Shown piece by piece: positions 2,512-25,887 of a stretch of 64,000 nucleotides of DNA. The DNA lies in contig NZ_CP016020.1 of assembly GCF_001889165.1 (NCBI RefSeq), forward strand, positions 1 through 64,000, given 5' to 3'. Within the stretch, counting starts at the first letter, position 1. The number at the start of each line of letters is the position of its first letter. Source of the DNA: Bacillus weihaiensis (lineage in GTDB: Bacteria; Bacillota; Bacilli; Bacillales; Bacillaceae). A model generated the notes under the pieces. The model made no database searches. It had not been told where the DNA came from and saw only the letters and a program-made list of their open reading frames with translations. The position numbers and the translations under genes are program-made.

Positions 2512-5500
2512 ATGAATATTCTTTGGATTTTTCATCAAGAAGCATATCAGAAATTAGAATGGAAACAAATACAAAAACAACAAGTTACAATTGGCTCGGA
2601 ATTAGAACATACTGTTACCTTTCAAACCTATCCAAAAAAAGAAGAACCAATCACTATTCGTAAGGAGGAGGAGGGGTTTTCATTCCATGTGGGTTCCTCC
2701 CAAACTCGAAAGTTGGAGCCCCTCAAAGCATATAAGATCAACATTGAAAATGAGCAGTTCACCCTTTATTTAAGTCAACAAAAAGTAGAGAAGCAAATTT
2801 ACTATATAGGACATCTGCCTGAACTGTCCTTCTCGACAAGGAGGATGCACAATCCACTTTCTTTAAACAAGCAGATGAGGGGATGAAAGAACAAGGATCT
2901 TCGATCTTTTACGACAGGGAATGAATGGGTGCTAGAAGGATCTATGGATGAGACTGTGTTCGTAAATGGTCAGAGAGTACATGCAAAACAAAGGATTCAT
3001 ACCGGTGACGAAATTGTTTGGCCCTTTATGAGCATGACATTGATTGAGGATGATTTTATTCAAGTGGATAGCGTATCAACTGTTCACACCTCCCTACCTG
3101 TAACAAAACAGCCAGATTCTGAGATGAAAAAGTAGTATCTTTATCGTAGGGCGCCCAGAATGGTGTATGACTTACCGATGAAAAAGTACAGCTGTCATTT
3201 CCTGGCCAGGATACGGAGGGGTCCAATCGGAGTCTTTGGTTAATCATTATGCCGCCGCTTGTGATGCTTCTCGTCATGGGGTTAGTTGCCATTTTAGTTC
3301 CAAGAGGGATTTTTATTATTGTCTCATTAGTCATGTTTATGACGACCTTAGTGACATCAACTGTTCAGTATTTTAAAGACAGAGGAAATCAAAAGAAAGC
3401 TAAGGAGCGTCGAAAACGAATATATACAAATTATTTGCATACAAAAAGCCGAGCTACAACAAGTAGCAGACAAACAAAAGGATGTCCTTTTGTTTCATTT
3501 TCCTTCTTTTGAACGAATGAAGTACTTAACAAGCCAGCATTCAGACAGATTATGGGAGCGATCATTAGAGAGCCCGGATTTTCTCCAATTTCGACTTGGA
3601 ACAGGAACGGTTCCAGCAAGCTACAAGATTAGTGCTACATCCTCTGATATGTCTAATCGAGAGATGGATGAATTGCTAGAGGAATCACAAAAGCTTGAAA
3701 ACAGCTATCAATCTTAGAAAACTTACCGATTACTGCAGACCTCTCTAAAGGTGCAGTTGGGCTAATTGGAAAGAATGCAGTGTTGAAAAATGAGCTCCAT
3801 CAAATGATTGGACAGCTCGCATTTTTTCACAGCTACCATGATTTGCGTTTTGTCCTTTTATTTGATGAACTGGAGTATCTGGAATGGGAGTGGATGAAGT
3901 GGCTTCCGCATTTTCAGGTTCCAAATTCCTATGCGAAGGGATTTATTTATAACGAAAAAAAACACGGGATCAACTGCTCTATTCATTGTATGAAATGATT
4001 CGTGAACGAGATCTGGAAGAGGATAAAGAAAAGCTTCGCTTTGCTCCTCACTATGTGTTTGTTGTGACAAACCACCAGCTTATTTCAGATCACGTCATTC
4101 TAGAGTATTTAGAGGAGCATCGTTATTTAGGAATATCTGTTAATTTTGCAGCGGAAGCGAAGGAAAGCTTAACAGAGAATATTCATACTCTTATCCGCTA
4201 TATCAATGACGAGCAAGGAGATATTCTTATTCAGGATAAAAAGGCTGTAAAGATACCTTTTAGTTTAGATGCACATAAACGAGAAAATAACGAGGAGTTT
4301 GCGCGACTTTTAAAAACGCTAGATCATCAAATTGGAATGACAAACTCCATTCCAACTAGTGTGACTTTCCTGGAAATGATGAATGTTAAGCAAGTCGATC
4401 AGCTTCCTATTAAACAAAATTGGCTAACGCGTGAGTCGGCTAAATCGTTAGCTGTACTATTGGTTTAAAGGGGAGAGAGGATAAAGTTGAGCTGAATTTA
4501 CATGAGAAGGCACATGGACCTCATGGATTATTAGCGGGTACCACAGGTTCAGGGAAAAGTGAGCTTTTGCAAACGTACATCTTATCCCTAGCTGTTCATT
4601 TTCATCCACATGAAGTGGCCTTTTTGCTTATTGACTATAAAGGTGGAGGAATGCACAACCTTTCAAGAAAATGCCTCATTTATTAGGAACGATCACAAAT
4701 ATTGAAGGAAGTAAGAATTTTAGCCTGCGTGCATTAGCATCGATTAAAGCGAGCTGAAAAGCGTCAGCGTTTATTTGACGAGTATCATGTTTCACATATT
4801 AATGACTATACGAAGCTATATAAGGATAAAAAAGCGAATCAGCCGTTACCACATTTGTTTTTAATATCAGATGAATTTGCGGAGCTAAAAACGGAGGAGC
4901 CTGATTTTATCCGTGAGCTTGTAAGTGCTGCCCGGATTGGACGTAGTTTAGGTGTCCATCTTATTCTTGCAACACAAAAGCCTGGTGGTGTTATTGATAA
5001 CCAAATTTGGAGTAATGCACGCTTTCGTATTTCCTTAAAGGTGCAAAATGCAGAGGATAGCCGTGAAATCCTTAAAAATGGAGATGCGGCATCTATTACT
5101 CTGACAGGTAGAGGGTATTTACAGGTGGAAATAACGAGGTATATGAGCTTTTCCAATCAGCTTGGAGTGGTGCCCCTTATCGTGAAGAGGAGACGTACGA
5201 TTTAGAGGATGAAGTCCGCCATTGTGACGGATCTTGGCTTAGTGCCATTATCAGAGGTTTCGACCCAAAAACAGCAACAAAAAGAAAAAATAACGGAAAT
5301 CTCTTCTATTGTCCAAAGAATAGCAGAAACACAAAAAGAGATGAACGTTGAAAAGCTTCAAAGCCCGTGGCTTCCACCTCTTGAATCGAGATTGTATCTA
5401 ATAAAAGAGGAGGAGCAAAAGGAAAGGTCGACGATTGTATTCGCAATGATTGACGAGCCTGAAAAGCAAAGTCAAACGAATTATCCATACCAGATCATTG

Positions 5501-6976
5501 AAGATGGGAACATTGGGGTGTTTGGTTCATCAGGCTATGGTAAAACAACAACTTTACTTACTTTACTTTTAGGGATAGCTAGAAGGTATTCGCCAGAAGA
5601 GATTCATTATTATTTGATGGACTTTGGAAATGGTGGATTATTGCCTCTTAAGCAGCTCCCACATACAGCAGATTATTTCTTAATCGATCAAGAACGTAAG
5701 ATGGAGAAGTTCATGAATATCCTAAAAGAAGAGATTGCGAGAAGAAAGCAATTATTTCAAAAGCAAGAGGTAAGTTCGATCAAGATGTATAACGCATTAA
5801 GTGAAAAACAGCTACCTCTCCTCTATTTAGTTATTGATAATTTTGACATCGTGAAAGAAGAGATGCTAGACCTTGAACAACAGTTAAACCAGTTTGCAAG
5901 GGACGGCCAATCTCTCGGTATATACCTCATGCTCACAGCAACAAGAATTAATTCTGTACGTCAATCGTTAATGAATAATTTAAAAACGAAAATCGTCCAT
6001 TATCTAATGGATCAAACAGAGGCTTATACGATGTTAGGAAGACTTGAATTTGCTCCGGAAGCAATTCCTGGCCGAGCCATTATAAAGCAGGAATCAGCCT
6101 ACTTTTCACAGGTGTATCTACCTACTGAAGGGAACGATGACTTTGAGCAAATGGCGAATGTGAAGGCAGAGGTTCATGAGCTAAAAGATGTTTATGCACA
6201 TGTGGATAAACCACAAGCCGTACCTATGTTACCAACAGAGCTGAATATCGTTTCTTTTGCTGCCTATTATGAAAAGAAAAAGGGATTACTTCCTATCGGG
6301 CTGGATGAAGAACAAGTCACACCTGTTTATGTGAATTTTCTTAAAGTAAAGCATTGTATCGTTCTCGGTCAGGCACAAAAAGGAAAAAACGAACACACTA
6401 AAAGCATTTATCCATACGGCATTAGAGCAAGAAGTAGATCAACTCGGTGTGTTTGATTCCATCGATCGCGGTTTAGCTTCTTTCATAGGTGATAACCGCT
6501 TAGTTTATTTAGAAGGGAAAGAGCACATTGCTTCTTGGCTCGATAAGGTAGAAGAAATCATGACTGAGCGGGAAAGTATCTATCATCGTGAAATCAGTCT
6601 AGGAAACTCAGTACCTGTATTTACACCGGTGTTTCTAGTCATTGATGGATACACACGTTTTTTACAAAATCTTGATCATCTCCTTCAAGATCGCCTCGTC
6701 AAGTTTATGAAAGAGTATAGCCATCTTGGCTTTAATATGATTGTTTCAGGAAGTAACAATGAGCTAACGAAAGGATATGATCCTTTAACTCTTGAAATCA
6801 AACAAATTCGCCAGGCGGTTGTTCTTATGAAAAAATCGGAGCAAACGATCTTTACACTCACATATGATCGAAAAGAAAAAGAAATTCAACCAGGGTATGG
6901 ATACTATGTTGAAAACGGTAAAGAACAAAGTATTCAAATTCCATTAGTGAATGTGGAAAGGAAGGCACATGTATGA
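2512..6976 (+). pseudogene. essC: Type VII secretion ATPase EssC/YukB(A), multiply frameshifted
   Basis: EssC is the FtsK/SpoIIIE-type motor ATPase of the system. The start is the ATG at 2512 after GGAGGT, giving MNILWIFHQEAYQKL. The reconstructed product is close to 1,490 codons, the size of YukBA. In order: two forkhead-associated (FHA) regions (2512-3100), two membrane segments near 3249-3360 followed by a basic stretch, then three ATPase domains. D1 has Walker [10 protein letters not shown] near 4540 and DYKGGG near 4630. D2 has GSSGYGKTT near 5525. D3 has GQAQKGK near 6370, where an A6 run at 6384-6389 should be A5 to restore GKTNTLKAF. About ten shifts break the frame (near 2885, 2925, 3135, 3480, 3710, 3970, 4465, 4655, 4745, 5125-5210 and 6385). 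The last part is intact and overlaps the esaA start by four bases (ATGA). Confidence 0.85.
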
Positions 6977-9900
6977 ACCAGCTAGTAACGATACTCAAAC
7001 TTTTACTCGTTATTGCTCTTATTGTTGTTACCCCACTGGTTTTCTTTCAAACTATCGGAGATAATCCGTTTAAAGTTGAAAAAGCGAGTGCAGCACAAAG
7101 GATCGCCATTATTAACGAAGATATGGGAACTGAGGAGGAGGGCGAACAAATCCAATTTGGTCAGGATGTTGCAGCCATATTAAAGGAAAACTCTGCCTTT
7201 GAATACACAGTTGTCGGAAGAAGTGCAGGAGAAAACGGATTGAAAAATCAAAAGTACGATGCCGTCGTATATCTCCCGTCAAACTTTTCTGAAAATGTCA
7301 TGACTTATAATGAAGAGAATCCAGTCAAAACAAATTTTGAGTATAAAGTACAAAGTCAGTTAAATAGCATTAATAAAGAAAAAGTGGTATTAGAGCTTGA
7401 AAAAGCAACGAAAAAAGTAAATCAAAAAATTTCAACGCTCTACTGGAATTATATCTCTGTTGATATGGAAACAATCCGACAGGAATTTGATGAAATTCTT
7501 CAAAAAGAAATTGCCTTTCAAGAGGCGATGAAGGCCTTCTATCAACCAAGCTCTAAAGATCTCGCTGGACAAATTGAAGAACAAAGAATGATGCTAGCAA
7601 GCTTGCAATCTTCTATTCAGAATACGAGCGAAAGAACACCGGATCAGAAATCCCTGCTTGAAGGGTATGAAAAAAGCTTAGCTAGCTTCGTAGAATTTGT
7701 TGAGCAATATAAGGAATATCAAGATAATCAACAAAAGGTACTAGCCGACATGCAAACAGAGGCCATTTTAACGGTGAATCAAGCGACTCAGGATCAACAG
7801 CCTATGTTTATGCAATCAAAGCAGCTGTTTGATGACGAAGGGAATACGTTCATTGAAAATATGAAAAAGCTTGATACTCAAATGTTTAACCAAACGCAAA
7901 CCTTTGGGCAGCTACAAGAGCAAAGGTATAGCCTTGTGAGTAAACAATTAAGTGAATATGAAACCCATCAGAAAAAGGTGTTGGATTTTTACCAACAATT
8001 AAAGGATTCTACTGTATTAAACAACGTGGAAGCAAAGCTTGCTGAGTATAGTGAGTCATTAAGTGAAGCACCAGAAGAGCCAGAAGAAGAAGCTCCAAAA
8101 GAGGAGAAGGAAAAGAAAAACCAGACAAAAGCAACATTACTTGCAGCAGACACTGGTCAAGAAGGTTCTCCTGAAGAATCTCAAGAAGAGGAACAACCGG
8201 AGGATACGGATATACCTTCTGGAGATGACACCGAGGAAGAACAACCAAAAAATCCAGAAGAAGAGCCCTCAGAGCCACCAACGAATCCAGATACACCAGA
8301 GGATACAGGCTTTGTAAATTTAGAGGCCGAAAGAAACGAGCTTTCTGCGATTATTGAAGAGATTAATAAACTAAAGGAAACCCTATCAACCAATACAGAC
8401 CAAAATTCAGAGGAATACCTTTCCGCTTTAGAAGGGTTAGGGAGTGTGCAAGATCGAATTGCAGTTGTAGCAGAATCATTACGTGATAAGGAAAGCGGTG
8501 GTACTAATCCGCTTCAAGAAAAACTAGAAGAATTACAAGAGCTACTTACTACAACGAGTGAAAAAGTAGCAGGTTTAGAGCTTGATAAGCAAAATCTAGA
8601 AGACCTGCGTGATACTCTTATTGAAGAAAAAATGATTTAATCAAGGAAAAGAATCTACTAACCGAGGAAAAAGAAGCATTACAACAGCTCTATGATGACC
8701 TCTTTACTCAAGCTACTAAACTAGAGGAAGAGCTGAATCTATACAAGGATTATGAGGCAAATATAAAAGAAGAAATCGAGAGAAAAGAACAAAGTATCTT
8801 AGCGTCTAAAGCCTTATCTGAAACACGGAAAACAAGAGTGAACGAATTCTTTTCCAAGGAAATAAAGAGCAAAGATTTACTCGATATGATGTTCTATTAT
8901 TCCTACCTAGACCGATACGAGGCCACGTTAATAAGCATGGCTTCAATTGATCAGGCAAAAATAGATACCTTAACAAATGAAGCTTTACAGCAGGAAGCGA
9001 ATAAGATTGTTGAAATTAAGGATGATGAGGACGTTGTCTGGACAAAATTGAGTGAAGACTTACCGTCCACTAAGGATGCACTTAATACAATGGAGGATCA
9101 ATTCACCCTGTTTATGGCTGAATATGAAACGAGTGTAAACGAAAACCAGGATATTTTAGTGAAGAGCCTTGAGGGGATTCAAGAGGATGCTCAAAATATT
9201 CTTACTCAAATTCAACAGCCTGAATTAAAGCTTTCTCAAGCACCACCGACTTCAAGTGTTGAAGGGCAGCAAATGGTTTCAGGATCTGAGCAAATAACGG
9301 AACAAATGGACTCTATGCATACGTGGCTGGAATCTGTTCAAGAAAGTCAGAGTGGAATCATCGATTATACAAATGAGCTCCAAGGGAGAATAAGCGATGT
9401 TCAAGCGGATGCGGATAAACTCAACTCCAAATGGGCGTCAAACGTTGCCTCAACAGAACTCATTCGTGACGATGTATTTAGTGTGTTAGGAAATACATTT
9501 GTTGATGGGCAGTCAAATGGATATGTGTATGACTTCTTAACAAATCCATTAAAGGTAAGTGGAGACATACCGGAAGAAACGAAGAGCACAACCGTTCAAA
9601 ATATTCCGCCTGTTGTGGTGTTATTCATCGTATTAGTTTGTAGCCTTTTAGTTGGCTATACAAGCTATTATTTCCAACAACCACCAGCGTGGATTCAAGC
9701 AGTCCTATTCACCTTGTTAAATCTAATAGTAGGCTTTGTTATCAGCTTATTCGGTCTTGAGATTTATCCATTAAGAGAAGAAAGTGCAGTGGAATGGACA
9801 GTGTTTACGATCTTATTACTCACTGTGGGATCGGCTCTTGTAAGAGTCGCGCTTTCGGTCCATTTATTAGCGGGTGCATTTATTACAGTTGGCTTAGTGA

Positions 9901-10124
9901 TATTCTATGTCACACCTTTACTTGCCTTAACAACACCAAACTTCAGCTTCCAAGATCCAATGTCGAAGGTGTATATGAGTATCCAATATGGAACAGAATC
10001 CTTATTTACACAGGCGATAGTTGTTCTTGGCTTACTATTAGTAGGGTTGGGTGCATTACAGTATTTTATTGGTAGATCAAAAATGCTACAGGTTGAGAAA
10101 GGTCAAGAAGCATATGAAGCGTAG
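6973..10124 (+). pseudogene. esaA: Type VII secretion protein EsaA/YueB, one frameshift
   Basis: EsaA/YueB is a large polytopic protein that crosses the membrane and reaches beyond the cell wall; in Bacillus subtilis YueB is the phage SPP1 receptor. The start ATG overlaps the essC stop. There is an N-terminal membrane helix (residues about 5-27), a long extracellular coiled-coil-rich region, and a C-terminal cluster of about five or six hydrophobic helices (9595-10080). The frame breaks once at about 8632, where an A6 run would need seven bases to join the first 555 residues to the remaining part. The total, about 1,050 residues, matches YueB. Residues about 365-445 form an acidic, proline-rich, low-complexity insert, typical of a variable surface-exposed region. 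Confidence 0.85.
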
Positions 10125-10604
10125 GCATCTAGTGAAAGTTTTCTTGTGTCTGGTGATCCTGACACTTTATCACCTTGCCGAAACAACGCAGGTATATGGG
10201 GAAACGACAATAGATGAGCTTGAACCAAATGATTATCAAAAAAACAAAGGGAATAAAGAATATAAGCTAAATCAGCAACAAAGCAATCAACGATCTTCCA
10301 TTCCAGAGGAACAAAAAACACTAACCTTTGAGGGGAAAAGGTATCGAATGATGATCAGGTTCTACAGAGTCTTTTCTCAAGTGAAGTGAAAAATAGTAAC
10401 ACAATTAAAGCAAAAGCTGAAGGTTTAGGACTATTTTCTTCCGAAGAGAAGGTGGCACAAAGTAGTGTTGAAGACTCAGTCACATCTAAAGGATCACCTT
10501 TAACCCTGCTTATCATCGTGCTTGGTTCAATTTGTATGTTGTTACTAATTGTGATTTTAGTTGTTTGGGGAAAATCATTGAAGCAAGAGGTTCAAAAAAG
10601 ATAG
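10114..10604 (+). pseudogene. essA: Type VII secretion protein EssA/YueC, one frameshift
   Basis: EssA/YueC is a small membrane component of the secretion core. The ATG at 10114 overlaps the end of esaA. The N-terminal part begins MKRRHLVKVFLCLVILTLYH, a signal-like hydrophobic segment. The frame is lost near 10345, and the continuation (LFSSEVKNSNTIKAKAEGLGLF, start near 10360) ends with a membrane helix around 10495-10575 and a short basic tail. The layout of signal-like segment, polar loop and C-terminal helix, and the position last in the core set, are those of YueC. I do not see a yueD-like gene after it. Confidence 0.75.
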
Positions 10605-10623
10605 GTCGTGTGTTGATGGTTTA

Positions 10624-10659
10624 GGAGGGGATAATGGTAGATGTATTTCCTCCTTTTCT
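10624..10659 (+). terminator. Probable terminator of the type VII operon
   Basis: GGAGGGGATA at 10624-10633 pairs with TATTTCCTCC at 10644-10653 (eight of ten positions), followed by TTTTCT. It lies 20 bases after the essA stop. Confidence 0.5.
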
Positions 10660-10720
10660 CTATTTTAATAAAGGCAGTTTTCTCTTAGCTTGTTGCTTTC
10701 CTAAAATATCCGAAGTGTAA

Positions 10721-10750
10721 AGATCTTGCCCCTAGGAACAAGATTTTTCT
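10721..10750 (+). terminator. Hairpin with T-run
   Basis: ATCTTG at 10723-10728 pairs with CAAGAT at 10739-10744, followed by a run of T. It is a second candidate stop between essA and the ywqH-like gene, and suggests the latter has its own promoter in 10750-10870. Confidence 0.5.
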
Positions 10751-10881
10751 CTCTGTAAAGTAAGAGCAGCTTTTTTCTTACATACCTTGGTATTAGCTGG
10801 GAGTGCTGACGGTATTCTTTGAATGATTACTATACAGAAACAAAGACTAAGAAAAAGAGCCTACATAAATGAGGTGAGAAT

Positions 10882-11310
10882 ATGAGTTTGGCGGATTCCC
10901 TTTTTAGTATTCAAAAAACAATTTCGAATCGATCAAATCAAGTAGATGAAAAGATTGAAAGATTAACAAAAGCGAAAAATGATCTTCTAGATGAACAGCA
11001 GCTTTTTCTAAAAGAAATCAAAACGATTAAGGAACCTGATCTAGGCAATGAATGGCAAGGACAGCGAGCAACTGATTATGATGAGGAACGTGAGGACGCA
11101 TATATTATCTTAAAGGACATCGGACAAAATGACTTTGAAGATTATCAGCAAAAGATTGAAAATAAGATCAATAGTTTAGAAATGGATCGAGCTCTTCTTA
11201 ATGTGACGAGTGCCCTTGCATTTGAGGCTGGAAGACTAGTTGATCGTGGTGAGGATGCGGTGGAAGAGCTATCTGACCGAATTAGTGAATTAAGAAGGCG
11301 GTTATTCTAA
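10882..11310 (+). CDS. YwqH-like DUF5082 protein, type VII toxin partner
   Basis: The 142-residue product is almost entirely predicted helix and resembles Bacillus YwqH (DUF5082), which is normally encoded just before a YwqI-like protein and an LXG-type secreted toxin. A WQG at about residue 55 inside NEWQGQRATDYDEE is a WXG-like turn, consistent with a WXG100-type helical hairpin. Start ATG at 10882 after GAGGTGAG. Its stop overlaps the next start by one base, so the two are translationally coupled. By family precedent it helps recruit or stabilise an LXG substrate; no such toxin gene follows here. Unlike the secretion genes just upstream, it is intact. Confidence 0.8.
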   Translation: MSLADSLFSIQKTISNRSNQVDEKIERLTKAKNDLLDEQQLFLKEIKTIKEPDLGNEWQGQRATDYDEEREDAYIILKDIGQNDFEDYQQKIENKINSLEMDRALLNVTSALAFEAGRLVDRGEDAVEELSDRISELRRRLF

Positions 11311-11576
11311 TGGTGACGATTAAACTAAATTATGGAACGGTAGTGAAGGAGCTTAATGAGGCAAAATCAGCCCTGCAATCCATTAATCTACGATCGCCAA
11401 GTTTAAAGGAGATGGGGAAAAACAAACTAGACTACACAAGCTATTTTCTTGAAAGAGAAGCACAAATCCACCAACTACTTTCGGAATATGTCTCCATAGT
11501 AGAGAAAAACATTGATGACACAAAGGTAAATGTACGATCATTAAAAGAACAAGATGAAGCTATTACGAGATGGTAA
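11310..11576 (+). CDS. YwqI-like DUF5344 protein, type VII toxin partner
   Basis: An 88-residue helical protein starting MVTIKLNYGTVVKELNEAKS, the pattern of YwqI-like proteins (DUF5344), small helical partners of LXG toxins exported by Bacillus type VII systems. It is coupled to the upstream ywqH-like gene by a one-base overlap (TAATG). A conserved-looking LNYGTV near the N-terminus and a long C-terminal helix are visible. In related genomes a polymorphic toxin gene comes next; here there is a hairpin and then an unrelated-looking 172-residue gene. Confidence 0.75.
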   Translation: MVTIKLNYGTVVKELNEAKSALQSINLRSPSLKEMGKNKLDYTSYFLEREAQIHQLLSEYVSIVEKNIDDTKVNVRSLKEQDEAITRW

Positions 11577-11644
11577 GGCGAATCATCACTTTACTTATCA
11601 AAAGAGAAGAATCCTTATTGTATTAGATACTAGTCAGAACAACT

Positions 11645-11686
11645 GGGGGGCACAATTCATAGATGGATTGTTGTCCCCTTTTTCAT
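11645..11686 (+). terminator. Probable terminator after the ywqH-ywqI pair
   Basis: A G-rich arm ending in ACAAT (about 11645-11656) faces ATTGTTGTCCCC (about 11667-11678), an imperfect stem followed by TTTTTC. It would end the ywqHI transcript before any toxin gene. Confidence 0.5.
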
Positions 11687-11729
11687 CATCTAATAATGTG
11701 TAAGTAATGATAATGAATGGAGGAAAAGG

Positions 11730-12248
11730 ATGAAATTTTTAATGAACTTTGGAGATACAAACTTTATTGGAGTAGCAAACGCTAGTGAATACAAAGCATT
11801 CGTAGGAGAAGATTGGGAATTAGATAGTCTCTTACGACATTTCGGAGACGAGATGAAGTGTGGACATATTTTGGTTTTTCAAATGACTGAAGAAGGCATT
11901 GAACATTCCTGGAGAGTAGAAGTTAAAATAGGTACGGCAGAAATAGCTGATCCATGCTTTAGGAAAGCAGTAGGGTACTTGGAAGTAACGGAGAACCAAC
12001 TATATTTAGTGGATTATGATTGCCTTACAATGGCTGCTCAGTTTAAAAATCACAATGTACCTAATCGCAATTGCTCTATAAATAAAATCAAAATAGATAA
12101 CGGTACATATAAGGTTGAAGTAGTTCAATATTATAACGTAGATAAAGATGAGTATATTGGGAGATCTGATACAGACGTTTTACTACATTTCATAAAGGGA
12201 GCAGCCAGCTTACCGATAGCAGATCGTGTATTTTGGTGTACAAATTAA
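11730..12248 (+). CDS. Unknown 172-residue cytosolic protein, possible immunity protein
   Basis: I do not recognise the family. The product begins MKFLMNFGDTNFIGVANASE and looks soluble, with no signal peptide or membrane helix, mixed strand and helix, and two cysteine-containing stretches (CGHILVF near residue 45, DYDCLTM near 98). It has a good GGAGG site before the ATG at 11730. Its place directly after the ywqH/ywqI partners, where toxin and immunity genes usually sit, makes an orphan immunity role conceivable, but that rests on position only. A hairpin separates it from ywqI, so it may be transcribed separately. Confidence 0.6.
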   Translation: MKFLMNFGDTNFIGVANASEYKAFVGEDWELDSLLRHFGDEMKCGHILVFQMTEEGIEHSWRVEVKIGTAEIADPCFRKAVGYLEVTENQLYLVDYDCLTMAAQFKNHNVPNRNCSINKIKIDNGTYKVEVVQYYNVDKDEYIGRSDTDVLLHFIKGAASLPIADRVFWCTN

Positions 12249-12275
12249 GTGAATAGGCTGTTTTCACATAGATTG

Positions 12276-12898: not shown

Positions 12899-14584
12899 TT
12901 AAAATTTAAAGCGGTTGACGATCTTCTGTAATTCTTCAGCTAAATGTGAGAGCGAGAAGGCTGCATCAGATATCTCTTCTAGAGAGCCTAATTGTTCTTG
13001 TGTAGCTATAGCGATAGCTTCAGAGCTAGAAGATGTTTCTTTCGTTCCTACTTCAAGAGTTGAAAGGGTATATTGAATACCTTCAACACCAGAAGTTAAT
13101 TGTTGTGTTGCAGAAGCCACCTCTTGAATTTGGGAGGCTACTTGTCCGATTAGACTTAATATCTCACTAAATTGATGGTTCGTATCAGTCACTAAGTTCA
13201 TACCTAAATGGACATTTTGCTGAACGTTTTTAATATTATTTTCCGTATCCTTCGAGTCAGTTTCAATTGTGGAAACTAATCGTTTAATATGACCGGCAGA
13301 TTTGTTTGTTTCGTCAGCCAGCTTTCGAACTTCTTCTGCTACTACGGCAAAGCCTTTTCCATATTCTCCTGCCCGAGCAGCTTCAATGGCTGCGTTCAAT
13401 GCAAGCAGATTTGTTTGTTCTGAAATAGTACTAATTAGAGAAGTGATATCACTAATCTCAGTTGTACTGTTTACTAATGATTCTAATCCAGTACCAGCTT
13501 CGTGAACAGATTGACTAATTAATGTCATTTGATTTGCCATCTTATTTAAAGTAGAGGCACCCATTTCTGCCTTATCTCTCATAAAAGAGGAATTCTCTGC
13601 AATATTGCTCGTATTAACCGTCACTTCGGATAGGTTGTCTAGTATCTCATTAATTGATTTTGAACTTTCTTCTGTCAGAGAACTTTGAGTTGTACTCGCT
13701 AAGGCAATGTCCTTCATTGAGTTAGATACATGATTAGATGTCATTTTAGATTGTTCAGCACTTGCCGATAATTCTTCGGAAGAAGCAGCGACTTGCTCCG
13801 ATGAGTCGCTTATTTGTCTGACGATACTTCCTAGTGAATGAATAAAAGTATTAAATGATCTAGCGAGCTGACTAAATTCATCTTTCCCCTTAATTGTAAT
13901 CGTTTGGGTCAGATCTGCTTCTCCTTGTGCAATATCTTCAAGTTGTCTATTTAAGCTTTTAAGAGACCCTAAGGTAGATCTTAGAAGGAGTGTGCTGAAC
14001 AAAATGCTTACTATAATTGTAGTTGTTGTTACGATTAGGATGAACCATTTACTGATGGTTGCAGATTTTTTAATATCTGCTTTTAAGCTCTCAACATCCT
14101 TATCTAATTGATCAACTACTTCATTTACGGACGGATCCAGTACATCCTTTCTTAGTGTTCTCTCTTCACCAAAGTGCATGGATTTAGCCAGGTCGGGACT
14201 TGTGGAAAATTGAGATACCACTTCCTGATTCAAGCTCCAATATTCTGTGAAGTTTTTTTGGATGTCCTCGACATTCGATCTATATTTTTGGTTATGGATG
14301 AGGGACTTCAATTGCTCTAAAGTAGTGAAAATATCTTCTGCTTTTTCTTTCATTCCCTCAGTAAACTCTTTTTCCCCAGTGATGATAAAAGCTCTTTCAT
14401 CATTTGATAATCCCGCTAACCTGTATTGGATATGTTTAATTTTATTTTGAACCTCCATTTTATCTGTTAAAAGCTCATCCTTTTTGACAGTAGAGGAGTT
14501 AATGAAAATAGATAAGCCTCCAATTAGCAATAATGAAAAAATTAAAATGGAGATAATACCTAAAAGTTTTGTTCTCATCTTCAC
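12899..14584 (-). CDS. Methyl-accepting chemotaxis protein
   Basis: A 561-residue transmembrane chemoreceptor that passes ligand signals to CheA/CheW. Membrane helices at residues about 7-29 and 180-201 flank an extracellular sensor of about 150 residues that is mostly helical (four-helix-bundle or CHASE3-like). A HAMP linker (about 203-255) and a long coiled-coil signalling domain follow, with the conserved tip [20 protein letters not shown] and [13 protein letters not shown]. The ligand cannot be told. It is transcribed alone; a sigma-D-like promoter lies upstream at 14685-14710. Size and layout are like the Bacillus YvaQ class. Confidence 0.92.
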
Positions 14585-14684
14585 GTGTGCATTTTCCTTT
14601 CATTGTTACATTTTTTAAGAAAATAAAGGCTAATGAACCTTTCATATAAAAATTTTTTAAGGTCGATTTATATGTCTGTACTAT

Positions 14685-14710
14685 ATATCGACAAATTTAG
14701 ACAAATTATA
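14685..14710 (-). promoter_or_regulatory. Candidate sigma-D promoter of the chemoreceptor gene
   Basis: Read on the minus strand, GTCGATAT (14692-14685) differs by one base from the sigma-D -10 GCCGATAT. A TATA-like -35 lies 14 bases upstream (14710-14707). Motility and chemotaxis genes of Bacillus are typically sigma-D controlled. The -35 match is poor. Confidence 0.4.
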
Positions 14711-14849
14711 AGGGGACTTTTATTAGTTTAGAAAACTGTTGATACATGAGGTGGATAAATCTTACCTAAGAGGCATACAGCCTACCATTAATCTATTAAA
14801 GCTAAAGCGTGGGTGAAAAGGTCTTACGTGATATGCTACTAGAAAAAGG

Positions 14850-14885
14850 CATGTAAAAACGCACAGACATGATAACCTGTGCGTT
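14850..14885 (-). terminator. Terminator downstream of iadA
   Basis: On the minus strand AACGCACAG (14885-14877) pairs with CTGTGCGTT (14866-14858) and is followed by a T-run. It lies about 110 bases after the iadA stop. The remainder of 14586-14995 shows no gene. Confidence 0.6.
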
Positions 14886-14995
14886 ACGTGATTTATTGAT
14901 TTCTATTTGTTGCTAAAGTTGAATTGCTACTAGCGTAATCCTTAGTTAATGAAAGGCTAGCTGGGACAAGTATGCTTTGTTTTTGACAATCTCTT

Positions 14996-16168
14996 CTATT
15001 CAAACGTTCCTTTCACAATCGCTTCACCATTTTCAACCATTTGTTTTCCTCTAGCCCATACGGATTGTATCGTTAGCTGCTCGTCTAATAAAACGAGATC
15101 TGCGTCTTTTCCTATCTTGATTTCACCCTTTTGCTGAAGCTTGAGAATCCTAGCAGGGTTACTTGTTATTACTTTAAGTGCGGTTGATAGGTCGATGTTT
15201 TCCTGTTGAACAGCTTGTTTTACTTCTTGGAAGAGAGTACTAACGTTCCCGATTTTGAGACCAATCATTTCACCGTGCTGATCAAAGTCTGGTAGGCTTG
15301 CTTGACCGTCTGAAGTGAAGGTGATTTGTTCGATTGGGACACTGGCTTCAAGCATGCGTTTTAATCCCGTACTACATTTTACTTCGCCTTCTTCTAGAAA
15401 TTTAGGAATCGTACTAGTCGTGAAATCAACCCAGCCACCTTGGAGAGCGTATTGAATGCCAGCTTCAAAGAGGTGTGGATTTCGATTAATATGTGTAGGA
15501 TAAAACTGACGAATAGGGAGATCAGTTGATGAGACAACATCTAATAGTAAATCCAAGTGTTGAAGACTGTCACCAACGTGAATATTTACAATTCCTGCTT
15601 TACCTGATAACATTCCACCAATTCGTGCAGCTGAGGCAAGCTTTGCAATTTCTTCAACAGTTGGTTGAGAAGATCGGTGGTCACTTATGGCGATCTCGCC
15701 AACTCCGATAATCTTATCAATAAGTATTAGATCGTCTTCAATTTTACCTGTAAGTGTTTTAACTGGTACTTGGTAGGAGCCCGTATGGACGTAGCAGGTG
15801 ATGCCTTCCTCCTCGAGCGCCCTTGCTTTTGCTAAGAGATTGGGCATTGTGCGCGTAGTGCCATCTGTACCTATAACGCCGACAAGTGTTGTTATACCTG
15901 CAGTTGTAGCCTGCGATAATTGTATTTCGGGGGTGCGCGTCTTGTAACTACCTTCGCCACCACCACCCGTGATATGAACATGTGAATCAATAAACCCAGG
16001 TACCACCTTTAAACCACTAGCATCAATGACCTTCATATTAACAAATGAAGATGGCAAAAGAGTAATTTCATCTTCAATAAAGCCGATTTTATCATGTGTG
16101 AGGAGAAGATCCTTCTTCCCTATATAATCCGGTGCATAAACCTCACCGTTTTTAATGAGAGTTAACAT
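14996..16168 (-). CDS. iadA: Isoaspartyl (beta-aspartyl) dipeptidase
   Basis: A 390-residue amidohydrolase-superfamily enzyme that cleaves beta-aspartyl dipeptides formed by protein ageing. The metal-binding strand is GFIDSHVHITGGGGEGSY (H-x-H at residues about 64-66); further ligand and substrate stretches are EIAISDHRSS, IVNIHVGDS, YPTHINRNP and TFTSDGQASLP (catalytic Asp). These are the diagnostic motifs of IadA. The start ATG at 16168 has an AAGGAG site immediately next to a 44-base inverted repeat. It lies 67 bases downstream of pepT on the same strand, so the two peptidase genes may be cotranscribed, both serving peptide recycling. Confidence 0.93.
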   Translation of the reverse strand: MLTLIKNGEVYAPDYIGKKDLLLTHDKIGFIEDEITLLPSSFVNMKVIDASGLKVVPGFIDSHVHITGGGGEGSYKTRTPEIQLSQATTAGITTLVGVIGTDGTTRTMPNLLAKARALEEEGITCYVHTGSYQVPVKTLTGKIEDDLILIDKIIGVGEIAISDHRSSQPTVEEIAKLASAARIGGMLSGKAGIVNIHVGDSLQHLDLLLDVVSSTDLPIRQFYPTHINRNPHLFEAGIQYALQGGWVDFTTSTIPKFLEEGEVKCSTGLKRMLEASVPIEQITFTSDGQASLPDFDQHGEMIGLKIGNVSTLFQEVKQAVQQENIDLSTALKVITSNPARILKLQQKGEIKIGKDADLVLLDEQLTIQSVWARGKQMVENGEAIVKGTFE

Positions 16169-16187
16169 ATTGAGATTCTCCTTTTAA

Positions 16188-16231
16188 GGTGCCAGTCCCC
16201 CAGTGCGTTAAAGCGCTGGGGGACTGGCACC
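16188..16231. repeat. 44-base inverted repeat between pepT and iadA
   Basis: GGTGCCAGTCCCCCAG at the left is mirrored exactly by CTGGGGGACTGGCACC at the right, around a short AT-rich loop. There is no T-run, so it is not a classical terminator. It ends about six bases before the iadA ribosome binding site. GGTGCCAG also appears inside the repeat element at 28230-28359. This looks like a small dispersed palindromic element, or an RNA processing or stability hairpin. Confidence 0.8.
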
Positions 16232-16235
16232 ACTA

Positions 16236-17465
16236 TTAGCTTTGTTCGAATAGCTTGCAGATTTCGACGATCGTTTGGGTGCTTTTTTCCATGTTTTCAA
16301 TTGAGATAAATTCAAATTTACCGTGGAAGTTTTCGCCACCCGTAAAGACATTCGGTGTTGGAAGTCCCATATAAGATAGCTGTGATCCGTCTGTACCGCC
16401 ACGAATAGGTTCTACGATTGGCTCAATTCCAAGGTTCTCCATCGCTTGATGTGCGACATCCACGATGTATTTAACGGGTTCAATTTTATCTCTCATATTG
16501 TAATATTGATCATTTAGTTCCAATATGATGGCTTCTTCGCCGTAAACACCTTTAAATTCGGCAACGAGTTCAGTTAGTTTCGCCTTTCTCTCCTCGAATG
16601 CATCTTTATCGTGATCACGAATGATATAGTGGACTTTTGTTTCTTCTACGTCACCCTCTATTGAAATGAGATGGAAGAAACCTTCGTAGCCCTCTGTAAA
16701 TTCAGGAGCCTCCATAGCAGGTAATTTACTTTGGAAAGCCATCGCAATTTTAGCGGAGTTCACCATTTTTGCTTTAGCTGTACCTGGGTGAACATTATTT
16801 CCTTTGAATGTAATTTTCGCGGCTGCTGCGTTAAAGCTTTCATATTGAAGCTCCCCTAAAGGACCACCATCAATTGTGTAAGCAAAGTTAGCGCCAAAAG
16901 CCTTTACATCAAATTTATGTGGACCACGGCCGATTTCTTCATCAGGTGTGAACGCAACACGGATCTTCCCATGCTTAATGTCAGGATTAGAGATCAGGTA
17001 TTGCATGGCTGTCATAATTTCGGCAATGCCGGCCTTATTGTCTGCACCCAATAATGTCGTACCATCCGTTGTCATTAATGTGTGACCTTCGTAATTTTTT
17101 AGGCTTGGGAATTGGGAAGGAGACATAATGACCTGTAAAGCTTCATTTAGGACAATGTCTTTCCCGTCATAATGTTGGACTAGCTGAGGACTGACATTTT
17201 TTCCTGTGAAATCCGTTGCCGTATCAACATGTGCTAAAAATCCAATTGTCGGGACTTCCTTATCTGTGTTTGAAGGAAGCGTTGCCATCACATAGCCATT
17301 TTCATCAATTGTGACCTCCGACATTCCGATTTCCTTCAGTTCCTCTACAAGCATATTGGCTAATGTTAATTGACCAGGTGTTGATGGGCACACCTCATTT
17401 TGTTCGTTTGATTGTGTATCAACCTTCACATAACGCGTTAATCTTGTTATTAAATCCTGTTTCAT
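16236..17465 (-). CDS. pepT: Peptidase T (tripeptide aminopeptidase)
   Basis: A 409-residue M20-family di-zinc aminopeptidase releasing the N-terminal residue of tripeptides in the cytosol. Ligand motifs are in place: [11 protein letters not shown] (H and D near residues 78-80), [13 protein letters not shown] (D near 140), [10 protein letters not shown] (catalytic and ligand Glu near 173-174), [10 protein letters not shown] (D near 196) and [11 protein letters not shown] (H near 378). Length is normal. The gene follows the rhodopsin gene on the same strand, but a terminator hairpin stands between them. Confidence 0.95.
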
Positions 17466-17512
17466 ATGTATTCCCCTTCCTTATAGTAGGATAGCTTTAT
17501 CATATCATTTTC

Positions 17513-17547
17513 AATAAAAAAATGCCCTGTGAACTAATCACAAGGCT
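17513..17547 (-). terminator. Terminator of the rhodopsin gene
   Basis: On the minus strand GCCTTGTGA and TTCACAGGGC form a stem followed by seven T. The stop codon TGA of the rhodopsin gene (17540-17538) lies inside the first arm. This makes the rhodopsin gene largely monocistronic and separates it from pepT. Confidence 0.75.
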
Positions 17548-18230
17548 CTTCCTTTTTCTAAATGTCGTAATCCATTTAAATCTAGAATGCTAAATCCAAC
17601 CTTTGAGAAAATAGGTAAGAAGATAAACGCGATTAACTCGGTTGTTGCTTGTGCTAATCCTAAACCAGATGGACCCAGTAGCCAAACGGTAGGATAGCTA
17701 ATCCAAAACACCGTTAAGTACGCAGCGGTACGCGTATAATGACTAGATAACTGCTTTCCACCTCGGACCGCTATTTTTCGTAGTGGATACCATATGATAT
17801 AAAGAATAATAAACAAAGCGACAACTCCAAGGAGATACCAAATATACTTGATGTTTTCACTTGAAAAGTCGGCTATAAGTCCCGTTAAAATCATAAATAC
17901 ATCAGCAAACACTAGAGATATAATTAACGTTTTATTTTTCTTCTCAAAAAACATAGCAGTAAATGCTAGAGCAATAAGCAGCATAGGCGTTGTCACGACC
18001 CAATCAATGTATCTTGCAAAATAAATGGTTTTCTCTGGTTTTTCTAATAAACCTTGTCCTAAAGCGATGGATAAATAGGCAGCTCCAGACCAGAGTGGTA
18101 TTAAGGTCGCTACTAAATATTCATATTTAGGCACACCTTCCGTTTTTTTACTAATCGTATAAAAATAAAAAGCACCCGAAAGCATAACGAAAACGTAAAA
18201 ATAGTGAAGAGTAACACTTAAATCATTCAA
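17538..18230 (-). CDS. Microbial (type 1) rhodopsin, Anabaena-sensory-rhodopsin-like
   Basis: A 230-residue seven-helix retinal protein. I place the start at the TTG read from 18230, six bases after AGAGGTGG; an in-frame TTG at 18248 lacks a site. Helix C reads ARYIDWVVTTPMLL, giving R73, D76 (counterion), T80 and A87 at the position of the bacteriorhodopsin donor Asp96. Helix F has WISYPTVWLLGPSG. Helix G has FLPIFSKVGFSILDL, with K210 for retinal and P206 where pumps have Asp212. Pro at that position and loss of the donor are features of Anabaena sensory rhodopsin, so a sensory or photochromic role is more likely than fast pumping. No transducer or retinal-synthesis gene is adjacent; the transcript ends at its own terminator. 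Bacillus coahuilensis is known to carry such a protein. Confidence 0.93.
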   Translation of the reverse strand: MNDLSVTLHYFYVFVMLSGAFYFYTISKKTEGVPKYEYLVATLIPLWSGAAYLSIALGQGLLEKPEKTIYFARYIDWVVTTPMLLIALAFTAMFFEKKNKTLIISLVFADVFMILTGLIADFSSENIKYIWYLLGVVALFIILYIIWYPLRKIAVRGGKQLSSHYTRTAAYLTVFWISYPTVWLLGPSGLGLAQATTELIAFIFLPIFSKVGFSILDLNGLRHLEKGRAL

Positions 18231-18332
18231 AAAACCCACCTCTAACAATGTTTTATACGTTAAGCTATGTCCAATTAGAGCCTATGTTAATCACTGTGGT
18301 GGTTATTAGATTCAATAATCCCTAAAAAATTC

Positions 18333-18375
18333 ATAAACAAAAAGCATGAAGGCTACCCTCCATACTTTTTGTTTA
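18333..18375. terminator. Terminator at the end of the tre operon
   Basis: ATAAACAAAAAGCATG with AAGG and its near-mirror around a four-base loop form a long hairpin with A- and T-runs at the ends. On the minus strand it begins at the treR stop codon. It probably ends the trePAR transcript. Confidence 0.7.
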
Positions 18376-19089
18376 TACACCCCGTCTCGCAAAATCGACA
18401 AATCGGAATTTATCTAAGCGATGGCGAGATTCTGTATATTGAAACAAACTAGCGTTTTCTAAGTAAACATAATTCTTAACGACGACAATATGGGAAAAAC
18501 CTTCTAAGTCAAGGTATTCGCGGTCCTCATTCGTGCAATCCTCGACAACGATTTCCTTCTTCGCAAAGCTAATGGAAAGCTTTAATTGCTTTTCAAGGTA
18601 TTCATAAATGGAGCTCTCACAGATTTGTGTGGTTAGCATAGGAACGTATTTTTTGAGGAAATAGTCTTTATCTAGAATGACATTCTCAACGCCAATTTTT
18701 CTTGATCGAACAACCTTCCAAACCTCGTCCTTGCTAGAAGCTTGAAGCTGTTGCTTAATAAAGGGCTCTGGTTTGATTAAGCCAAGATTATGAACTGTCG
18801 TTATCGGCTGCATATTCAAATTGTTTGAAACCTCTTTAAAGCTGACAAGTCCTGAAATAGGAAAACTCATCTTCTGTACATCAAGAACAATAGAGCCTTT
18901 GCCACGAATTTTTTGGATAAACCCGTTTTGACTCAATAGATTTAACGCTTTACGGATGGTCTCCCGACTTGTTTCGTATCGTTCTGCGAGTTCATTCTCT
19001 GAAGGAAGGACCTCGCCTGCTTTTATTTCCCCGTGCTTTATTTTATCTGACCACTCTTTATAAATATTCATATATTTATTCGTTCGCAT
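18373..19089 (-). CDS. treR: Trehalose operon repressor TreR (GntR family)
   Basis: A GntR/HutC-type repressor of trehalose uptake, with trehalose-6-phosphate as inducer in Bacillus subtilis. The N-terminal winged helix contains LPSENELAERYETSRETIRK and ALNLLSQNGFIQKIRGKGS. The C-terminal UTRA effector domain ends TESRHRLDKFRFVDFARRG, almost the same as TreR of Bacillus subtilis. The start is uncertain: I use the ATG at 19089 (MRTNKYMNIYKEW), matching the family N-terminus, but an in-frame ATG exists at 19134 and neither has a strong ribosome site. It is the last gene of the operon and its likely targets are the two palindromes before treP. Confidence 0.93.
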   Translation of the reverse strand: MRTNKYMNIYKEWSDKIKHGEIKAGEVLPSENELAERYETSRETIRKALNLLSQNGFIQKIRGKGSIVLDVQKMSFPISGLVSFKEVSNNLNMQPITTVHNLGLIKPEPFIKQQLQASSKDEVWKVVRSRKIGVENVILDKDYFLKKYVPMLTTQICESSIYEYLEKQLKLSISFAKKEIVVEDCTNEDREYLDLEGFSHIVVVKNYVYLENASLFQYTESRHRLDKFRFVDFARRGV

Positions 19090-19159
19090 CATCATCACCG
19101 ACTTAATTTTACCATGAACGATGTATCGGTGCATAAGGTGCTTTTACAAGTAGGTCTTG

Positions 19160-20827
19160 TTATTTTTTCATATAGTACACAATAGATTCGTACGGTCTAA
19201 GTTCTATTTTTTCACTAGTAGTTGAAGAGTCAGCATAATTTGATAATAAAATTTCACGAGATAACCCTGCCATAGTTATTTCTTTTGGTAGTTCAAACAT
19301 CGTTTTTTCTTCATAAAAATTATTGACAACGACTAGCATTTCGTGATCAGTTTCCCTTACATAGGCAAAGATTTGCTCATGATTAGGCAGTAGAAGCTGA
19401 TAGCTGCCATCTGTTATCACATCATATGTTTTTCTTAATGAAATCAATTTTTGGTAGTGATAGAAAATGGAGCTTTCGTCACTTAAAGCCTTCTTTGCAT
19501 TTATCTCTTTATAGTTGTTAGCGACTGAAATCCAAGGTGTCCCATTTGTAAATCCTGCATGATTCGTTTCATCCCATTGCACAGGTGTCCTTGAGTTGTC
19601 ACGAGATTTTCTTTTTAAAATGTCAAGAATGTCTTGTTCAGAGTATCCTTTTTCTTTCAAAATGGTATACATATTTAGGCTTTCAACATCTCTGTAATCA
19701 TGAATAGAATCGAATTTCGGGTCTGTCATTCCAAATTCTTCTCCTTGATAGATATAAGGAGTCCCCTGCATCATATGAATCGTGGTTGCAAGCATTTTTG
19801 CTGATTCGTTATGGTAGTTTCCGTCATTTCCGTATCGAGAAACAACTCTTGGTTGATCGTGATTACACCAAAATAATGCATTCCAACCATTGCCTTCGTT
19901 CATGCCAATTTGCCATGTTGAAAGAATCTTTTTAAGAGCCTTAAAGTCCATGTCACCAATCGCCCATTTTTCACCGTTTGGATAATCGACTTTTAAGTGG
20001 TGGAAATTGAATGTCATGCTTAACTCTTGACGCTCAGGATTAGAATACTGGATGCAATGATCAATCGTGGTAGAGGACATTTCACCTACCGTCATACTAT
20101 CGTATTTTGAAAAGACCTTCTGATTCATTTCGTGCATAAACTCATGTACACGAGGACCGTCTGTATAAAATTTACGTCCATCACCAGGTGCAACAGAACC
20201 GTCATCGTCAGGGAAGCTTTGGTCTTTAGAGATTAAGTTAATTACATCAAGTCGGAAGCCATCGACACCTTTTTGGAACCAAAAGTCCATCATGCTATAA
20301 ACCTCTTGACGTAATTCGTCATTTTCCCAATTCAAATCTGCTTGAGTTACATCAAATAGGTGAAGATAATATTGACCAGTCGTTTCATCGAGCTTCCATG
20401 CTGAACCGCCAAACTTAGATTGCCAGTTTGTTGCTTCATCTCTCCAAATGTAGTAATCACGATATTTATTATCCTTAGAGGAAGACGCCTGCTTAAACCA
20501 TTCATGCTCTGTTGAAGTATGATTTACAACAATATCCATAATGATCTTAATATGGCGCTTATGAGCTTCCTCTACTAGCTGATCAAAATCCTCAATAGAT
20601 CCGTATTCTTCATGAATAGAGAAATAATCGCTAATATCATAGCCGTTATCACGCTGAGGAGATTGATAGATAGGCGTTAACCAAATAACATCTACACCCA
20701 GCTTCTCTAAGTAATCAAGCTTTTCGATGATTCCTTGAAGATCGCCAACACCATTTCCTTGTGTATCATTAAAGCTCTTTGGATATATTTGATAGACGAC
20801 TGATTTTTTCCACCAAGGTTGTTCCAT
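19160..20827 (-). CDS. treA: Trehalose-6-phosphate hydrolase (phospho-alpha-1,1-glucosidase)
   Basis: A GH13 enzyme of 555 residues splitting trehalose 6-phosphate into glucose and glucose 6-phosphate. Motifs: QIYPKSFNDTQGNGVGDL at the N-terminus, MDIVVNHTS, DGFRLDVINLIS (nucleophile Asp), VGEMSS (acid/base Glu), and WCNHDQPRVVSRYG (transition-state Asp). The start ATG at 20827 follows TGGTGG at a normal distance; the five-codon upstream extension is not needed. It lies 70 bases before treR and 460 bases after treP. That long gap contains a perfect 15-base inverted repeat and a 21-bp repeat array. Confidence 0.95.
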   Translation of the reverse strand: MEQPWWKKSVVYQIYPKSFNDTQGNGVGDLQGIIEKLDYLEKLGVDVIWLTPIYQSPQRDNGYDISDYFSIHEEYGSIEDFDQLVEEAHKRHIKIIMDIVVNHTSTEHEWFKQASSSKDNKYRDYYIWRDEATNWQSKFGGSAWKLDETTGQYYLHLFDVTQADLNWENDELRQEVYSMMDFWFQKGVDGFRLDVINLISKDQSFPDDDGSVAPGDGRKFYTDGPRVHEFMHEMNQKVFSKYDSMTVGEMSSTTIDHCIQYSNPERQELSMTFNFHHLKVDYPNGEKWAIGDMDFKALKKILSTWQIGMNEGNGWNALFWCNHDQPRVVSRYGNDGNYHNESAKMLATTIHMMQGTPYIYQGEEFGMTDPKFDSIHDYRDVESLNMYTILKEKGYSEQDILDILKRKSRDNSRTPVQWDETNHAGFTNGTPWISVANNYKEINAKKALSDESSIFYHYQKLISLRKTYDVITDGSYQLLLPNHEQIFAYVRETDHEMLVVVNNFYEEKTMFELPKEITMAGLSREILLSNYADSSTTSEKIELRPYESIVYYMKK

Positions 20828-20875
20828 ATCTAGCACCACCATGTAAGTATTTTTTTTCCGAGGTAAAAGGAAGAG

Positions 20876-20921
20876 ACGATACCATCAGGAAACTTGTACT
20901 TGTTACTCCTGATGGTATCGT
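20876..20921. repeat. Perfect 15-bp inverted repeat in the treP-treA gap
   Basis: ACGATACCATCAGGA at 20876-20890 is mirrored exactly at 20907-20921 around a 16-base loop. In the minus-strand tre transcript it would fold about 50 bases before treA. No T-run follows, so it may act as a processing or stabilising hairpin or partial attenuator rather than a full terminator. Confidence 0.8.
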
Positions 20922-21007
20922 GATTGGTTTATATCATTTGTTTTGTGTTCTTTCGCTATGCCGCGTCGCTTTTGCTGGGTCGCGCGAAGTTTGTCAGGTT
21001 TTCCCGA

Positions 21008-21206
21008 ATCGCGGATAGAGCTCGGAAAATCGCGGATAGGGCCCGGGAAACCGCGGATAGAACTCGGAAAATCGCGGATAGAGCCCGGAAAATAGCGGAT
21101 AGGGCCCGGGAAATCGCGGATAGAGCCCGGAAAATCGCGGATAGGCCCGAGAAAATCGCGGATAGGGCCGGAAAATCGCGGATAGCCCCCCAAAAAGATC
21201 ACGGAT
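21008..21206 (+). repeat. Array A of 21-bp tandem repeats (core ATCGCGGATAG)
   Basis: Nine units, eight of 21 bases and one of 20. Each starts ATCGCGGATAG (one has ACC and one ATAG at the start), followed by a more variable GC-rich half such as AGCCCGGAAA. A degenerate partial unit (ATCACGGAT) ends the array. It lies inside the trePA intergenic gap, antisense to the tre transcript as written. Frames stay open on both strands because the period is seven codons, but no start with a ribosome site or known protein is present. The 40 bases upstream resemble those upstream of array B. Confidence 0.9.
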
Positions 21207-21287
21207 CCTCCCCGAAAACGATAGAGACACCACATCGAACCCCGAATTAGCCGCAAAAATCATGAAACATTGAACTACCTTCTATGA

Positions 21288-25111: not shown

Positions 25112-25508
25112 ATATTTCTCCCTTTTATAAACTCAATGGTACATTATATTTTCTTTTCTCAAAACGATACACGTTCATTTAACCAATTTGTTTAATTGTT
25201 TAATTGCATAGATTAGTATAGCAATCATTTTATAGATATGTAGAATTTTATAACTGAATTTGGAATGAATACCGAAAAATGAAAGGGATTTATAGATTAT
25301 TCAGAAAAAAGTTATAATGTAAGGGATACCAATTTAGAAATTGAATTGATTATCTATTCTTTCTTCTTTACACTCTATATATGTCTTTTTTCTTACCTGT
25401 TTTATCCCGGTAACTAAAGGTGAAGTTCTTAATTAATTAGCTACTTAGTTCCAAGGACGACGAGATGACACAATGCTGGGTAGCGCGGTATTTGTCGGTA
25501 TTGCCCGA
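25112..25508. other. Divergent intergenic region before array B
   Basis: No gene. AT-rich promoter DNA for the EamA gene, then, from about 25468, a GC-richer leader (TGCTGGGTAGCGCGGTATTT and TGTCGG...CCCGAATCGCGG) that closely matches the sequence before array A. Confidence 0.5.
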
Positions 25509-25757
25509 ATCGCGGATAGAGCACTAAGAATCGCGGATAGAGCACTAAGAATCGCGGATAGAGCCCTGAAAATCGCGGATAGAGCACTGAAAATCGCGGA
25601 TAGAGCACTGAAAATCGCGGATAGAGCCCTGAAAATCGCGGATAGAGCACCGAAAATCGCGGATAGAGCCCTGAAAATCGCGGATAGAGCACCGAGAATC
25701 ACGGATAGAGCCCTGAAAATCACAGAAAGAGCTCTAAAAATCACAGATAACCCGACG
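25509..25757 (+). repeat. Array B of 21-bp tandem repeats (core ATCGCGGATAG)
   Basis: Eleven consecutive 21-base units plus a partial one. Units 1-9 keep ATCGCGGATAGAGC; the second half alternates among ACTAAGA, CCTGAAA, ACTGAAA and ACCGAAA types. The last three become ATCACGGAT, ATCACAGAA and ATCACAGAT, so the array decays at its right end. It sits between the divergent EamA and ThrE genes. The open frames across it (IADRALK repeated, or YPRFSGL on the other strand) are a by-product of the seven-codon period. Confidence 0.92.
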
Positions 25758-25887
25758 ATTACGCTTGTAAACAGACTATGTGAGATAGAGTTGGGTTTTG
25801 GCTCGCCTTCTGGATGAGCAGAATAGTCAATTTTGGCTAAAGAACGAGTAAGAAATTAGCTTTAAAACACTGATTTGGGGTGAAGCG

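Follow-up and report, generated by a model that had tools for sequence, protein, structure and literature searches.

A Bacillus xenorhodopsin gene predicted to encode a BcXeR-like, light-driven inward proton pump

The 64,000-nucleotide stretch of Bacillus weihaiensis DNA that we analysed (contig NZ_CP016020.1, positions 1 to 64,000; hereafter the window) carries a gene that, judged by its profile match and key residues, is an ordinary xenorhodopsin and adds one member to a known class. We give a probability of about 0.8 to the reading that the encoded protein (the window protein) uses light to pump protons into the cell, like BcXeR from Bacillus coahuilensis, rather than acting as a light sensor. 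The first-pass annotation had proposed a photosensor or photochromic switch. Its reading of the residues holds, but the chain that led from a proline at the second counterion site to a protein that does not pump, and hence to a sensor, breaks: the nearest characterised relative, BcXeR, pumps inward, the proline does not separate sensors from pumps, and the protein falls outside the clade of Anabaena sensory rhodopsin (ASR). The gene and its surroundings are made up as follows.

16236..17465, minus strand: pepT (peptidase T), the downstream neighbour (TIGR01882, 2.4e-203; synteny)
17524..17546, minus strand: intrinsic terminator with a 9-pair stem and a T run (-18.4 kcal/mol, z -5.19), starting in the last rhodopsin codons and separating the gene from pepT
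17538..18230, minus strand: xenorhodopsin gene (PF01036, 5.9e-52; 65% identity to BcXeR and 48% to ASR; residue tables)
18236..18243, minus strand: ribosome-binding-site-like AGAGGTGG, just upstream of the rhodopsin TTG, read by eye from the upstream sequence
18333..18376, minus strand: terminator of the tre transcript, with a 20-pair stem and a T run, upstream of the rhodopsin gene
18373..19134, minus strand: treR (trehalose operon repressor), the upstream neighbour (TIGR02404, 9.8e-96)

The rhodopsin frame is intact, opens with TTG and encodes 230 amino acids; a second in-frame TTG upstream offers an alternative start at 18248. The PF01036 match is full-length and lies far beyond chance, and with its retinal lysine the protein belongs to the heptahelical Bac_rhodopsin family. 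Counted from the TTG at 18230, the residues D76, T80, A87, P206 and K210 are exactly those that had been read before: D76 is the counterion, A87 marks the lost donor site and K210 binds retinal. The Pro that replaces the second-counterion Asp of helix G (P206) and the helix C donor position without Asp (A87) are the two hallmarks of xenorhodopsins. P206 and K210 also carry the same numbers as in ASR, as had been pointed out, and by alignment the number of D217 coincides as well; the kinship with ASR that had been proposed is thus correct, both proteins being xenorhodopsins.

Within that class, the window protein stands closer to BcXeR than to ASR. In a search of solved structures, BcXeR (7ZMY) was the best match, with an E value of 2.1e-89 and 302 bits compared with 227 bits for ASR. 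A nearer relative, the Metabacillus litoralis rhodopsin (75% identity), was found in a collection holding one genome per species, and the scan of this collection added further relatives from Bacillus, Pseudalkalibacillus, Jeotgalibacillus, M. iocasae and M. lacus. A maximum-likelihood tree placed the window protein in a 44-row clade of Pro-type (xenorhodopsin) sequences with support of 100/100, and outside the separate cyanobacterial ASR clade (100/98). The first-pass annotation had held that a firm place among pumps would count against a sensor, and for inward pumps this is where the protein falls, in a 7-row clade with BcXeR supported at 100/98 and apart from ASR; with wider Bacillales sampling, the two proteins share a 12-row clade (100/99).

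Across the order Bacillales, 46 of the 397 genomes hold a rhodopsin above the Pfam cut-off. Among the 19 loci that we inspected, 13 are of the Pro type and six have a D-T-K motif; the latter, which we take to be Exiguobacterium-type outward pumps, are 23–30% identical to the window protein, have Lys at the donor site and occupy a separate branch of the tree. All six (L141-L145 and L147) have Asp at the second site. One genome (G125) carries two rhodopsin genes, one of which (L148) encodes a xenorhodopsin. A Tissierellales metagenome-assembled genome (L048, 6001-6699) encodes a Pro-type xenorhodopsin on a long branch that has lost the cytoplasmic acceptor, with Val at 217 and also Val at 91 and Gly at 214.

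The second-site Pro has been proposed as diagnostic of the whole xenorhodopsin class (Ugalde 2011, PMC3198991). It occurs in PoXeR, a natural light-driven inward proton pump (PMC5118547), and, as a later paper reports, in the inward pumps NsXeR and BcXeR (PMC13093656). The generalization that pumps retain a second-site Asp therefore fails, and the missing Asp is no argument against pumping. E34, T88, S211 and D214 have been named as the proton-release residues of BcXeR, and all four of these cytoplasmic residues are kept in the window protein as E37, T91, S214 and D217. About a third of the residues differ between the two proteins (position 80, for example, is Thr here and Ser in BcXeR), although they share the clade, the Pro/Lys arrangement and the release residues; function was measured for BcXeR only, of which three structures are available (PDB 7ZMY, 7ZN3 and 7ZN0). 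By alignment, A41 of the window protein corresponds to BcXeR A38; NsXeR has His48 against an Ala in both. PoXeR and NsXeR, which are more distant from the window protein going by the literature rather than by alignment, resemble it in the second-site Pro, the cytoplasmic Asp (D216 and D220, respectively) and the acid at position 108 or 111, and PoXeR has Glu35, like the cytoplasmic Glu of the window protein.

These residues also make up the case for a non-pumping photochromic sensor that, like wild-type ASR, would signal through some partner. ASR has equivalents of P206, K210, D217 and D76, and it shares the missing donor and the Glu at 37 with the window protein; moreover, the class as a whole was proposed to be sensory by Ugalde et al. 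(PMC3198991). Wild-type ASR does not pump even though its Glu, Pro206 and D217 are identical (PMC5118547), so the release residues on their own are not proof of pumping. Other features set the two proteins apart. Besides having Ser at 87, ASR has Gln at position 110, as do 30 of the 31 cyanobacterial loci in the alignment, whereas the window protein has D110 and all sampled Bacillota have Asp. By numbering offset only, D110 matches PoXeR D108 and NsXeR E111. In PoXeR, replacing D108 with E or N lowers pumping, so that D108 is needed for full pumping; carried over through the numbering, a similar role may apply to D110, although the difference between Asp and Gln may track phylogeny rather than function. 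The long Arg-rich C terminus of ASR is absent from PoXeR (PMC5118547), and the window protein likewise has no Arg-rich tail, with 20 residues after K210 compared with mostly 48–60 in the cyanobacterial clade. By D110 and the short tail, the window protein groups with the pumps, even though either feature could simply follow phylogeny. As BcXeR, a pump, is also nearer than ASR in identity and tree position, we regard a sensor as improbable. Among the cyanobacterial sequences, two rhodopsins of Cyanobacteria bacterium FACHB-63 (L026 and L030) carry a natural Glu at the site of ASR D217; in ASR itself, inward proton transport was obtained by engineering this change.

For the preferred reading, inward pumping, we propose that a member of the Bacillota (BcXeR) branch of xenorhodopsins, once loaded with retinal, would work as follows. 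Light would isomerise the retinal bound to K210. Because the second site is P206, D76 would be the only counterion, and the Schiff base proton would turn toward the cytoplasmic side and reach the cytoplasm by way of S214 and the pocket of E37, T91 and D217. Reprotonation of the Schiff base from outside would follow. Both the pumping and its direction are carried over to the window protein from its characterised relatives.

The genomic setting speaks to a signalling partner. The immediate neighbours of the rhodopsin gene are pepT and treR, which bears out the earlier remark that no transducer lies beside it. A gene for a methyl-accepting chemotaxis protein is found three genes downstream (12899-14584); we ruled it out as a transducer because synteny shows no such gene near the rhodopsin in relatives. 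A profile search for ASRT (PF07100), the partner of ASR, found none in the window's genome, with the positive control matching. This result and the lack of a conserved adjacent transducer both count against a sensor. ASRT is present in two M. litoralis genomes, away from the rhodopsin gene. A search of five cyanobacterial genomes that carry ASR-clade rhodopsins did not find it, in agreement with Ugalde et al., who do not see ASRT as a general partner (PMC3198991).

With its own terminator, and situated between the tre terminator and pepT, the rhodopsin gene is probably transcribed alone. No sigma-70-type match was found between 18231 and 18333, and a search for a conserved upstream promoter or operator motif was dropped as the upstream alignment of the relatives was too gappy. 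A possible refinement of the pump reading, not exclusive of it, is that the pump serves signalling, with light-driven proton entry informing the cell through a change in membrane potential or in the pH of the cytoplasm. The proton-motive force falls when protons are pumped inward, and a role in intracellular signalling is suggested by Inoue et al. (PMC5118547); a single, patchily held gene would also fit an accessory role. However, no gene for a regulator or effector accompanies the rhodopsin consistently, and we hold this refinement only tentatively.

Within one genus, the rhodopsin is present in some genomes and absent from others at the same site. Full-length rhodopsins occur in 3 of 21 same-genus genomes, namely that of the window and two M. 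litoralis-like genomes (75% identity). The rhodopsin–pepT pair is also kept in M. litoralis, and the pepT neighbourhood is not part of the BcXeR locus (synteny). In many of the other same-genus genomes, treR directly adjoins pepT with no rhodopsin between them; in one (L117), about 110 bases separate the treR and pepT matches and the rhodopsin site is empty. Weak rhodopsin matches in three same-genus genomes (L009-L011) were rejected as gene remnants, because tblastn with the window protein found nothing there.

The window's genome encodes one carotenoid synthase and two CrtI-family desaturases, but no match to Blh (PF15461), an RPE65-type oxygenase (PF03055) or a CrtYcd cyclase (PF18916). A weak PF05834 match (144 of 380 positions, 30.9 bits) was rejected as a lycopene cyclase and judged to be a general FAD-binding domain. 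Eight other xenorhodopsin-bearing Bacillota genomes (L013-L018, L053 and L064) likewise gave no match for Blh, RPE65-type or CrtYcd proteins, a few of them showing weak partial PF05834 matches. The same searches returned strong Blh matches in three Hymenobacter and a Methylobacterium, and strong RPE65-family matches in cyanobacteria. Among the immediate neighbours scanned, no retinal or carotenoid gene accompanied the relatives' rhodopsins. Rhodopsin-bearing Firmicutes without blh or diox1 have been noted before by Nakajima et al., who also describe one actinobacterium that lacks both and makes retinal by an unknown route (PMC7734400).

Because the searches of the host turned up no gene for making retinal, the protein may for part of the time lack its pigment in nature. 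Taken further, this would make it a relic, a retinal-free apoprotein heading for loss, to which the lack of Blh, RPE65-type, CrtYcd and full-length CrtY lycopene cyclase matches and the few same-genus genomes with a full rhodopsin could point. The intact frame and the retention of all functional residues argue against this, as does selection: dN/dS is 0.08–0.11 in two close pairs of rhodopsin relatives, and is also about 0.1 against M. litoralis, where dS is near-saturated. We consider a relic highly improbable. The low dN/dS indicates that these rhodopsins are maintained, and presumably they do receive retinal. Purifying selection together with the absence of the cleavage and cyclisation genes searched for could mean that Bacillota xenorhodopsins are loaded by a novel route, either a new retinal synthase or dedicated scavenging, feeding an inward pump; as it stands, we find this idea doubtful.

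The class already has a Bacillus member with crystal structures of intermediates, BcXeR, and the wider Bacillales set, with its filled and empty sites within one genus and its lack of known genes for retinal synthesis, is more useful than the single gene. It allows the purpose of inward proton pumping and the source of the retinal to be tested in Gram-positive bacteria.

An apparent second rhodopsin gene in the same genome (C1:4341381-4342021) was rejected, as the contig tail repeats window positions 14182-21073 in an untrimmed circular overlap. The repeated segment (C1:4338000-4344873, L004) is 99.7% identical to the window, with frameshifting indels that create a false, broken second copy of the rhodopsin and pepT. 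Elsewhere in the window, two intergenic arrays (20903-21256 and 25441-25817) are built from a repeat unit of about 21 bases and translate as RADRARKIADRA-like runs, and the region from about 5000 to 12250, judged by eye from its open reading frames, looks like a type VII secretion (Yuk/Ess-like) cluster.
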